Made by a program: the position numbers and the translations under genes
Notes under the pieces: model-generated
What the model was told of the DNA's origin: nothing
Database searches by the model: none
Seen by the model: only the letters and a program-made list of their open reading frames with translations
Assembly: GCF_026914305.1 (NCBI RefSeq)
Contig: NZ_CP113866.1
Span: 690,183 to 754,182, forward strand
Length of the DNA stretch: 64,000 bases
Reading direction: 5' to 3'
DNA from: Caldicellulosiruptor acetigenus
GTDB taxonomy: Bacteria > Bacillota > Thermoanaerobacteria > Caldicellulosiruptorales > Caldicellulosiruptoraceae
Shown: piece after piece, positions 10,946 to 14,759 of the stretch
How positions within the stretch are numbered: position 1 is the first letter of the stretch
How the letters are laid out: each line of letters opens with the position of its first letter

Positions 10946-11467
10946 TTATTTTAACTCCCTATGGCTATTCCGGCAGAAAAGGCAGTAGAACTTAATGCAA
11001 GGTATTTGGAGCAGTTGAATTATAAATTTGTAAAAAGAAACTTCGATAATAATTTATGATAGAAGAAATAACAAAAAATAAATTTACAAGTTTGATAAAA
11101 AGGTAATTGTTAAAAACACTCTGTTGATAAATTGTTAGATTAATACCACTAAAAGACAAAGGTCAATTTTGTCCAACTTTAAGAAAGACTTTTTACAGGA
11201 GTTGTTCAATTAATTCATGTTATCTGAACGGTAAGTTTATTTTATAAATAACAACAGCAATAATTGTAATGGCTTTATAGTTAAAAGCTTACAGCACAAA
11301 TTGGCAAATTTAAAGATTTATGTTAATTCCGAATTCTTAACTTGATTTTAGAAAAAATTTTTTAGATAATTAGGACAAAAAAAGACAATAAAATACCGAG
11401 CCACTCAGCATGGAAAAATTTAACTGGCAGCTTGTTTTGAGAAGATTATTAAATTAAGAAAATGGGA
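10946..11467. other. Non-coding stretch between two IS relics
   Basis: This is AT-rich DNA with no convincing gene. A 32-codon plus-strand frame at 10961-11059 starts MAIPAEKAVELNARYLEQLN but lacks a ribosome site. It may be another transposase scrap. I see no strong promoter, terminator or repeat in the rest. Confidence 0.5.
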
Positions 11468-12721
11468 TTAACTAAGTATTGTAAACATCACCTCTTTCTT
11501 GATATATTTGACCAAGGCTAGAGCATTGCAAAGATCAGAGGAATTAATCGTCTTGCGGTAAGGACAAGGGCACGTTTATGCTGATGACAGGTCAACCTCT
11601 GAGAGCTTCTTGTTGTAGAAGGCTTTATAACGGACTGTGTGCTACAGCACACAGTTAGCAGCCTCAACAAGATAGTATTCTGAGAATATTGGTTACCACA
11701 CTTAGCTAATGAGGTTTCCTGGGCATTGAAATTGCCTGATTGGTATTGAGTCCAAACAAGGCCGGAGTATTTAGCTAAAGCAGCTTCATTTTTGAAGCGC
11801 TTGATATCACCGATTTCAGCGCAGATAGCAGCTGCAAGAACATCTCCTATGCCAGGGGATGGTGGTCAAGGTTTGGGAGAAAGCTTTAAGAAGTTTTGAG
11901 ATTTCTTTGTCGAGTTTTTTAAGTTGTTCTTGCATAAATCTAATATTTTCAAGAGTCATAGACAAAGCTAAGGCATTTGCCTCAGCCAACAGAGGATGTA
12001 ATCTGTATGAACGATTAGCAGCGGTTTTAAGTATTTCAGCGATTTTATTGACATCTGATAATCTGTTGTTGCCGTTGTCAGATACAAATTTAATTAAATC
12101 TTCTAAAGACATGGAAGCAATGTCATCTGGGGTGAAGTTTTCGATGATAGCGCAAGATGCCTTACCGAAGATATCAGAAAATGGACAGTCTTGAGAGTAA
12201 GTAGAGAATTTAAGGTATATGAGATTGAGAGCTCTGTTTTTTTCGCGAGTTAGATTATGAACAAGGTGGTAGCGCATTCTGGTAAGGCGTTGTAGCGCAG
12301 CATATTTAAAATCAGGCAAAGGTGTTGGATTCAGCTTACTGAACCTAACGCATTCAGCGATGATAATTGCATCGATGCTATCTGTTTTAGGCAAGAAAGT
12401 GTAGATTTTTTTAAAGCCTTTGACTATGCTTGGGTTGAGAACATAAAAAGTTGGTTTATATGGCAGCAGTTCAGATGAAGAAGCAAGATACAAGTGCAGA
12501 TGCCAAGCGTAATGTGAAGTTGCTTCCATGCCAAACTTAATACAGGATAGATTATACTGGCTGAGGCAATCAATAACTCTTTTGATTAATTCGTTAGCGC
12601 CTTCTTGATCGTTAGGCAAGGAAAAAGGTTTTTTAATCAAGTGATTTCCGGCATCATCGATGAAGAAGATAGAATTTGACTGACTACTGATATCAATGCC
12701 CACGATTAAAGTATTTGGCAA
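11468..12721 (-). pseudogene. Frameshifted IS110-family transposase (DEDD type)
   Basis: The intact N-terminal 290 or so codons read down from 12721: NTLIVGIDISSQSNSIFF, GMEATSHYAWHL, KTDSIDAIIIAE and TREKNRALNLIY. These are the RuvC-like DEDD domain of IS110 transposases. Near 11865 one extra C (ATCCCCTGGC where ATCCCTGGC is expected) shifts the frame inside the Transposase_20 segment, which otherwise continues as IPGIGDVLAAAICAEIGDIK and AALAKYSGLVW. A second shift follows near 11690 (then YYLVEAANCV), others near 11640 (VRYKAFYNKKLSEVDLSSA) and 11525, and the gene ends as LALVKYIKKEVMFTILS. The decay is mild, which suggests recent inactivation. A GGAGG ribosome site precedes the start. Confidence 0.88.
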
Positions 12722-12781
12722 TTTGAAGACCTCCTTTTTGCAAGTAGTGGTAAGAAAAAGTATTAAGCCCTTTATCCCTGG

Positions 12782-12917
12782 GGATTACACGTAATGCAGC
12801 CTCGCCGATATTAGAGCTACTTGAGCAGTTTACAGGGTGCACACATCTGACATGCTCAAATCAGATGTGGTAAACTGCCAGTGCACAGCAAACGAGTAAA
12901 CATTACTCATGTAATCC
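12782..12917 (-). ncRNA. Candidate IS110 bridge RNA
   Basis: Upstream of the transposase (its left, non-coding end) lies a 136-base region with nested complementarity. The outer helix is GGATTAC (12782-12788) with GTAATCC (12911-12917), followed by GTAATG (12791-12796) with CATTAC (12901-12906). Inside it is a second arm, CAGTTTAC (12826-12833) with GTAAACTG (12870-12877), an 8-base one-sided bulge (12834-12841), then CACATCTGA (842-850) with TCAGATGTG (861-869) around a 10-base loop. Known IS110-group elements encode a bridge RNA in exactly this position, with internal loops that pair to target and donor DNA. The strand is inferred from the transposase. Function and exact ends are not shown. 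Confidence 0.6.
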
Positions 12918-13146
12918 TTTGGGGTTCAGTCTTTCTCAAGCTGTGGCGTGCAGATATCAAAGCACGTCCAGCAGGAGGTGATCAAAAAATATCCAAATAA
13001 ACTAAATCAGGCTTAAACTTTTTCTGATATTAGTTTACCAGAGATAAAGGGCAAATTTAAACTGTAGCAGTCAATTTTAATATTCAATTTTTTAAGAAGT
13101 GAATGTTTTAAGAAAAGCTTTGTTATCAAGGTCAGTTTCCAGTAAT

Positions 13147-13178
13147 CAATTGGTACTAATAATTTAATGTACCAATTG
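13147..13178. promoter_or_regulatory. Perfect 10-bp inverted repeat upstream of the esterase operon
   Basis: CAATTGGTAC (13147-13156) and GTACCAATTG (13169-13178) are separated by 12 bases, about 65 bases before the esterase start. It could be an operator for a dimeric regulator or an RNA hairpin. There is no T tract. The rest of 12985-13244 shows no convincing gene. Confidence 0.45.
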
Positions 13179-13244
13179 AGATATGAAGTTTTAAGTGACT
13201 TGATAATCATATTATAAGAGGTATATTGAGAGAGAGGGATTTAT

Positions 13245-14759
13245 ATGTTAAGAAGAGCAGTTACAGAAAATGGAATAGTAGAAGGGCTTCCTGCATCTGA
13301 CCCGAGGATAACTGTTTTCAAAGGGATTCCTTTTGCAGCACCTCCAGTAGGTGAATTGAGATGGAAACCTCCGCAACCGTGCAAAGATTGGAAGGGTGTT
13401 CTCAAGGCTTACACATTCGCACCAATTTCAATTCAGGCAACGCCAGGATTAGATCCAAATAATATTTACACGAAAGAGTGGCATGTTGATCCTGACATTC
13501 CTATGAGTGAAGACTGCTTGTATTTAAATATTTGGACACCTGCAAAACACCCTGATGAAAAATTACCTGTAATGATTTGGTTTTTTGGTGGAGGATTACA
13601 GGTTGGTTATACTTCAGAAATGGAGTTTGATGGAGAGCGCATAGCAAGAAGAGGAATAGTATTTGTAAGTGTAAACTATCGATTGAATGTATTTGGCTTT
13701 TTTGCACATCCTCAGATTTCAGAGGAGAATAAAAATGGACCAAAGGCTAATTTTGGATTATTAGACCAACTGGCAGGAATTGAATGGGTAAGACGCAACA
13801 TTTCAGCATTTGGAGGGGATCCAAATAATATTACTATATTTGGCCAATCTGCTGGTGGCGGTTGTGTTACTGCTCATATCACATCACCTGTTAGTAAAGG
13901 TTTATTTCAAAGAGCCATCATTCAAAGTGGAGGAGGGTTTGCTCCACGTTTTAACCAGGGATATCCTGATTTGAGTGAAGCCGAAAAAATAGGAGAAGAG
14001 TTTTTTAAGTTTTTAGGTGTAAAAAGTTTGGACGAGGCAAGAAGAATAGATGCAAGGATTATATTTGAGAAATCCGAAGAATTTGGGCATAGATGGGGAT
14101 TTGTGAAAGATGGATTTTATATAGTTGATGATCCTGTAAAACTTATTATCAAGGACAATTGGCACAAAATACCTCTGATCATAGGGCATACAGCAAATGA
14201 ATTTGTGGAGGAACCCAATGTTGAAACAATAGAGGAATTCAAAGAGTATGCTTACAAAAGGTTTGGAGAGGATGCAGAAGAGTATATAAGGCTTTGTAAC
14301 GTTGATAATAATGATATTGTACAGATCAGGAAAAAAGGCGCAATTAACATGTTTGAGATAGGGAATCTGATGTGGTGTGAGCACAATGCCAAGACAAAGG
14401 ATACAACAATTTACTGTTATTGCTTTGATCCGGAGATACCAGGCGATGATGCAGGCTCTTTTCACTCTTCTGAATTGTGGTTTGTATTTGAAACCTTAGC
14501 AAAGTGTTGGAGACCTTTTGTAGGCAAACATTATGATTTAGCTCGACAAATGTGTAACTATTGGACAAATTTTGCTAAAAAGGGTGATCCTAATGGAAAT
14601 GATGCAGATGGAACTCCAATGCCAGAGTGGAGACCTTATACTGAAGAGGAAGCATTTGTAATGTTGTTTGGGGACAAACCATGTAAAGATCCAAACAGGC
14701 CAACTGAACTTATGAAGTTTATGGTGAGACATCTTTTTAAAAAGTTAAAAATAGATTAA
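13245..14759 (+). CDS. Type B carboxylesterase (alpha/beta hydrolase)
   Basis: Carboxylesterase of the cholinesterase-like family, which cleaves ester bonds. In this setting it may remove acetyl, methyl or feruloyl groups from plant-wall oligosaccharides, though the substrate is unknown. The family N-terminus FKGIPFAAPPVGELRWKPPQ is present, then SEDCLYLNIW, the oxyanion region WFFGGG, the nucleophile elbow FGQSAGGG (Ser near residue 205), and a His in FHSSELWFVFET near 408. The length of 504 residues is typical. No signal peptide is visible, so it is cytoplasmic. A GAGAGAGAGGGA ribosome site precedes ATG 13245. The beta-lactamase-fold gene follows within 40 bases. Confidence 0.92.
   Translation: MLRRAVTENGIVEGLPASDPRITVFKGIPFAAPPVGELRWKPPQPCKDWKGVLKAYTFAPISIQATPGLDPNNIYTKEWHVDPDIPMSEDCLYLNIWTPAKHPDEKLPVMIWFFGGGLQVGYTSEMEFDGERIARRGIVFVSVNYRLNVFGFFAHPQISEENKNGPKANFGLLDQLAGIEWVRRNISAFGGDPNNITIFGQSAGGGCVTAHITSPVSKGLFQRAIIQSGGGFAPRFNQGYPDLSEAEKIGEEFFKFLGVKSLDEARRIDARIIFEKSEEFGHRWGFVKDGFYIVDDPVKLIIKDNWHKIPLIIGHTANEFVEEPNVETIEEFKEYAYKRFGEDAEEYIRLCNVDNNDIVQIRKKGAINMFEIGNLMWCEHNAKTKDTTIYCYCFDPEIPGDDAGSFHSSELWFVFETLAKCWRPFVGKHYDLARQMCNYWTNFAKKGDPNGNDADGTPMPEWRPYTEEEAFVMLFGDKPCKDPNRPTELMKFMVRHLFKKLKID

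Follow-up and report, generated by a model that had tools for sequence, protein, structure and literature searches.

How an insertion sequence (IS) of the IS110 group chooses its landing site is the question raised by a strongly folded segment (positions 12782–12917) in a 64,000-nucleotide (nt) stretch of the Caldicellulosiruptor acetigenus chromosome (contig NZ_CP113866.1; hereafter the window). The segment lies directly 5′ of an IS110-type transposase open reading frame (ORF; 12721–11816, minus strand), and a preliminary description had proposed it to be the bridge RNA of that element, with loops that guide the recombinase to donor and target DNA. Comparing the element with its relatives, we conclude, with a probability of about 94%, that the minus-strand RNA encoded upstream of the transposase is an IS110-group bridge RNA whose donor and target guides would steer insertion to ribosome-binding sites, a reading drawn from sequence comparison.

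The helices described for the segment are all present: an outer stem, an inner CAGTTTAC/GTAAACTG stem, an 8-base one-sided bulge and a perfect apical stem of 9–10 bp. The segment folds at −41.8 kcal/mol (z = −3.49), and a longer 293-nt piece (13052–12760, minus strand) folds at −109.5 kcal/mol (z = −8.15); none of 200 shuffles was as stable in either case. With the transposase ORF on the minus strand, its RNA is expected on that strand, and the whole RNA (13052–12767, minus strand) forms a four-way junction. Its parts are a closing stem, P1 (5′ strand GCCCUUUAUCUCUGG, 13038–13052; 3′ strand CCAGGGAUAAAGGGC, 12767–12781), a 5′ stem-loop (12998–13037), which in the relatives, read by eye, is replaced by a hairpin of other sequence in the same place, a target-binding loop domain (12918–12997) and a donor-binding loop domain (12782–12917). 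The segment first noted is the last of these and thus one arm only of a larger RNA, with the minus strand as its functional strand. The two places proposed within it as guide loops fared differently: the region 12797–12825 holds the right donor guide, whereas the one-sided bulge, a structural feature found again in relatives, was rejected as a guide.

The bridge RNA tests reported below hold for about 40 copies within the genus and for about 20 related families across the phylum. These distinct families (39–75% identity) came from protein searches of the class, the phylum and genome contigs, and in most of them the ORF is intact, the ends can be recognised and the left end folds. On the diverged set, MAFFT with RNAalifold recovered mainly the outer donor-loop stem while the inner stems misaligned; we therefore used per-sequence folds and an alignment-free strand-swap test instead. 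Swapping strands among 21 families weakened P1 from −28.7 to −20.4, the outer donor-loop stem from −22.9 to −13.6 and the inner donor-loop stem from −24.8 to −14.7 (0 of 20,000 permutations for each). Pair counting agrees for the outer stem, with 86.6% paired versus 64.2% when shuffled and at most 44% when slid. In the individual folds of 26 relatives, an internal loop mostly carries the left donor guide on its 5′ side and the right donor guide on its 3′ side, and in most of them it sits below the inner stem, the one-sided bulge and the apical hairpin; several members, L102, L085, L114 and L116 among them, fold differently on their own. The proposal that this is a bridge RNA therefore holds on each of the three points on which it was checked: homologues show covariation in the stems, intact elements have these stems too, and the loops can pair with both donor and target.

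The last of these points was followed in the donor loop. In the first families examined, its 5′ side repeats the right end of the element and changes along with it; for the more distant families, the loop sequences had already been recorded when the right ends were obtained. Each of the 13 distinct donor types has a left donor guide identical over 5 nt to the right end of the same element, which none of 100,000 permutations equalled; in 10 of the 13 the identity extends over 6 nt. The guide always lies between −148 and −173 from the gene start. In the window RNA this guide is CGUUUG (12889–12894, minus strand), matching the right end CGTTTGT-CT. The 3′ side of the loop, AUCGGCGAG (12801–12809, minus strand), pairs with CT-CGTAT in the skip-two manner known from IS621 (PMC11208158); in L114 and L116, whose left end reads CT-TG, the right donor guide is GCAAG instead.

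The loop 5′ of the segment first noted contains UCACCUCCU on one side (left target guide, anti-Shine-Dalgarno-like; 12973–12981, minus strand) and UUGAGAAAG on the other (right target guide, pairing with CT-TTCTCAA; 12931–12939, minus strand). Across 59 insertions, the left guide agrees with its own target at 4.42 of 7 positions versus 3.72 when permuted (0 of 20000), and with one entry per guide 8 of 20000 permutations were as good. For the right guide the figure is 1 of 20000; it also agrees with the base that immediately follows the core on the right in 53 of 56 sites, among them those at which this base switches to C or A. One genome (G007) harbors two subtypes with guides ACCUC and ACCCC, and their sites largely differ to match. 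This analysis omitted nine copies that have another element as left flank, and the left target guides in the Caldicellulosiruptor-like group were extracted automatically and then corrected partly by hand.

Read outward from the left end, the insertion sites resemble AGGAGGTAAAGTGATG, that is, Shine-Dalgarno boxes. At 43 of the 59 insertions versus 14% of background CT positions (binomial p = 2e-24), a start codon that opens an ORF of at least 60 aa lies no more than 20 nt from the core; the median core-to-start spacing is 12 nt. An exact CCTCCT is present in 11 of the 23 distinct target guides, and another 8 guides agree with it at 5 of 6 positions, compared with 0.3% and 2.4% of background 9-mers. 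In the window, the guide with its flank, GAUCACCUCCU (12973–12983, minus strand), matches the conserved 3′ end of 16S ribosomal RNA, GGAUCACCUCCUUUCU. The element's relatives, across many Firmicutes, insert into ribosome-binding sites, apparently because their guide reproduces the sequence that the ribosome itself uses for recognition. In related genomes, empty orthologous sites continue straight through the join (e.g., GTACCTCC-CT-TT), and AGGAGG is rebuilt on insertion because the AG of the core is shared. The window copy adjoins an esterase-type ORF (13245), the start of which lies together with its Shine-Dalgarno region, GAGAGGGATTTATATG, in 13221–13260 (plus strand); this region retains the Shine-Dalgarno sequence that element-free orthologues in two genomes keep as GAGGGATTTATATG; for the empty site of this copy there was no single contiguous match, only the esterase side being common.

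As a plausible mechanism, the left end of the excised circle would be transcribed from a sigma-70-type promoter created where the ends join. Once joined, the ends read TTGACA-17-TATAAT, as in the sister copy L052, and this arrangement is kept in 14 of 15 relatives checked, the 15th having a variant −10; the window copy retains the −10 half, TATAAT (13211–13216, minus strand), and has lost the −35 half, TTGACA, which belongs to the right end. The transcript would fold as the closed four-way junction of P1, 5′ stem-loop, target-binding loop and donor-binding loop, and would presumably be bound by the recombinase. Its donor loop would base-pair with the element's own joined ends, CGTTTGT-CT-CGTAT, and its anti-Shine-Dalgarno-like guide with ribosome-binding sites read antisense (CCTC-CT). 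Strand exchange by the recombinase at the CT core would place the element before a gene while the core restores AGGAGG, which might be of benefit.

The best surviving alternative accepts a bridge RNA that guides the element and ascribes the Shine-Dalgarno location to survival bias, insertions elsewhere having been lost by selection. Survivors would indeed be expected outside genes; however, the core keeps its distance of about 12 nt from the start codon, and the sites change with the guide, even between the two subtypes in one genome, which makes this account improbable. Distinctly less probable is that the folded leader is mainly a translational regulator, whose CCUCC masks the Shine-Dalgarno sequence of the transposase and resembles the targets only as a by-product. 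A longer fold does pair ACCUCC of the target guide with GGAGGU of the transposase leader (12973–12985 with 12735–12760, minus strand), a possible feedback on translation, but guide and transposase Shine-Dalgarno sequence do not covary (6.0 matches for own pairs, 6.16 for permuted ones), whereas the guide does track the insertion sites, and masking, rejected on these grounds, cannot account for the donor covariation. Finally, although many IS ends have strong inverted repeats, an ordinary palindrome or terminator with no guide role can be practically dismissed, as no terminator-like site is found in 12700–13300 and the loop sequences covary with donor and target.

Some observations weigh against a guide-carrying bridge RNA. 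Five copies from four species (L054, L073–L076) combine the donor guide CGAAGG with the donor CGTTTGT, position 7 of the donor mismatches the guide, and some target positions mismatch theirs. In addition, no Rfam family matches the region, and the permutation tests take no account of shared ancestry.

The anatomy of the element is that of the IS110 group. The long left end holds a structured RNA that precedes the gene and shares its strand, and a CT core is common to donor and target, with scarless insertion. The right end is only about 150 nt and the guide RNA lies upstream of the gene, so the downstream RNA of IS1111 types is absent. Comparison of copies with different flanks sets the ends (left CT-CGTATAATATG, right TTGACATTATACCGTTTGT-CT) and a length of about 1.89 kb; in the window, the element extends on the minus strand from its left end at 13220 to a right end truncated near 11346. 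Intact copies encode a 414-aa recombinase with an N-terminal DEDD domain (PF01548) and a C-terminal PF02371 domain, closest among solved structures to the ISCro4 and IS621 recombinases. The window copy had been described as decayed, and so it is: its ORF, which retains PF01548 (DEDD_Tnp_IS110, E = 4.9e-30), is frameshifted near residue 289, leaving the N-terminal part of the gene (11816–12721, minus strand) and remnants on to about 11475, and its right end is about 30 bp shorter than in intact copies. We do not expect it to move by itself; it is dead or, at best, mobilised in trans.

Matches occur in 10 of the 13 genomes of the family, with up to 17 per genome. One more near-identical copy lies 75 kb off on the same 2.74-Mb chromosome (G000), and the two G000 copies (the window copy and L052) have frameshifts in common. 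Genome G002 contains 12 copies (L039–L050) at different sites that differ in sequence by no more than 2 bases and are all frameshifted in the same way near residue 235, and G002 yielded no intact recombinase of this clade; the shared frameshifts in G002 and G000 thus suggest movement in trans or an unrecognised frameshift mechanism. Two right-end matches (G002:C1:2513240 and G006:C1:2428273, the latter with a 483-bp partial copy) correspond to no full element in the copy list and may be derivatives shortened by deletion. The copy L031 (JAOAJI010000023.1), 96% identical to the window transposase, sits on a contig labelled as a Micrarchaeota metagenome-assembled genome, for which binning contamination is the likelier explanation.

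In the decayed copies L053–L057 and L073–L076, from several species, the RNA region and the ORF bear the same short block substitutions at fixed places in varying combinations; these look like template switches or conversion between copies. One of them exchanges the donor guide for CGAAGG, the genuine guide in the distant L128/L129. In two genera, a second IS110-family element of about 1.99 kb, ending in ...TTCATTACAGGAATG, is located precisely at the left end of the first (L040, L043, L046, L047, L049 and L050 in G002; L054 and L055 in G011; L116/L149 in G395), as if it used that end as its target. A match between the guide of the second element and the end of the first is suggestive in one genus and was not reproduced in another. 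The left flank of the window copy, CTCTCAATATAC (13221–13232), looks like a footprint of this second element.

Among known systems, IS621 (PMC11208160, PMC11208158) likewise has an RNA that is encoded in its left end and precedes the gene for a DEDD-Tnp recombinase, and it shows the same order of 5′ stem-loop, target loop and donor loop, a CT core and a junction promoter. In both, the left guides pair with the bottom strand and the right guides with the top strand, with the skip-two right donor guide. In contrast to IS621, the window family adds the closing stem P1 around both loops; the 177-nt IS621 RNA ends with its donor loop (PMC11208158) and therefore has no stem in place of P1. The window family also has a left end of about 340–590 nt, a recombinase of 414 aa versus 326, a left donor guide match of 5–6 nt versus 8, and Shine-Dalgarno boxes as targets, whereas IS621 targets repetitive extragenic palindromic (REP) elements. 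The presence of P1 suggests that the architecture of bridge RNAs is more variable than would be expected from the IS621 model. In the seekRNAs of IS1111 and IS110 types (PMC11187229), the non-coding end also yields a transposase-associated RNA that selects the target; IS1111 types, however, have this RNA downstream of the gene and subterminal inverted repeats, while that of the window family lies upstream. The best sequence match among solved structures, the ISCro4 transposase (PDB 9t56, E = 1.8e-12), is a distant relative, and the comparison concerns the recombinase sequence alone.

Bridge RNAs are already known; Shine-Dalgarno homing and the closing stem appear new, as a literature search that did not reach many subscription papers and preprints found no earlier description of P1 or of a link between IS110 elements and Shine-Dalgarno targeting. 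The elements described here probably represent an IS110 clade, spread across Firmicutes, with a distinct closed, P1-bearing bridge RNA and an anti-Shine-Dalgarno target guide; for it, the ribosome-binding site would be a generic landing pad that is restored on insertion, so that host genes stay translatable. Bridge recombinases are under development as programmable DNA-insertion tools, and the clade supplies natural, diverged versions of them, about 20 in number and in part from thermophile genera, whose donor and target guides can be read from the sequence. Shine-Dalgarno homing, if true, would explain in a simple way how an element with site-specific insertion can locate sites that are both plentiful and tolerable, whatever the bacterial genome.
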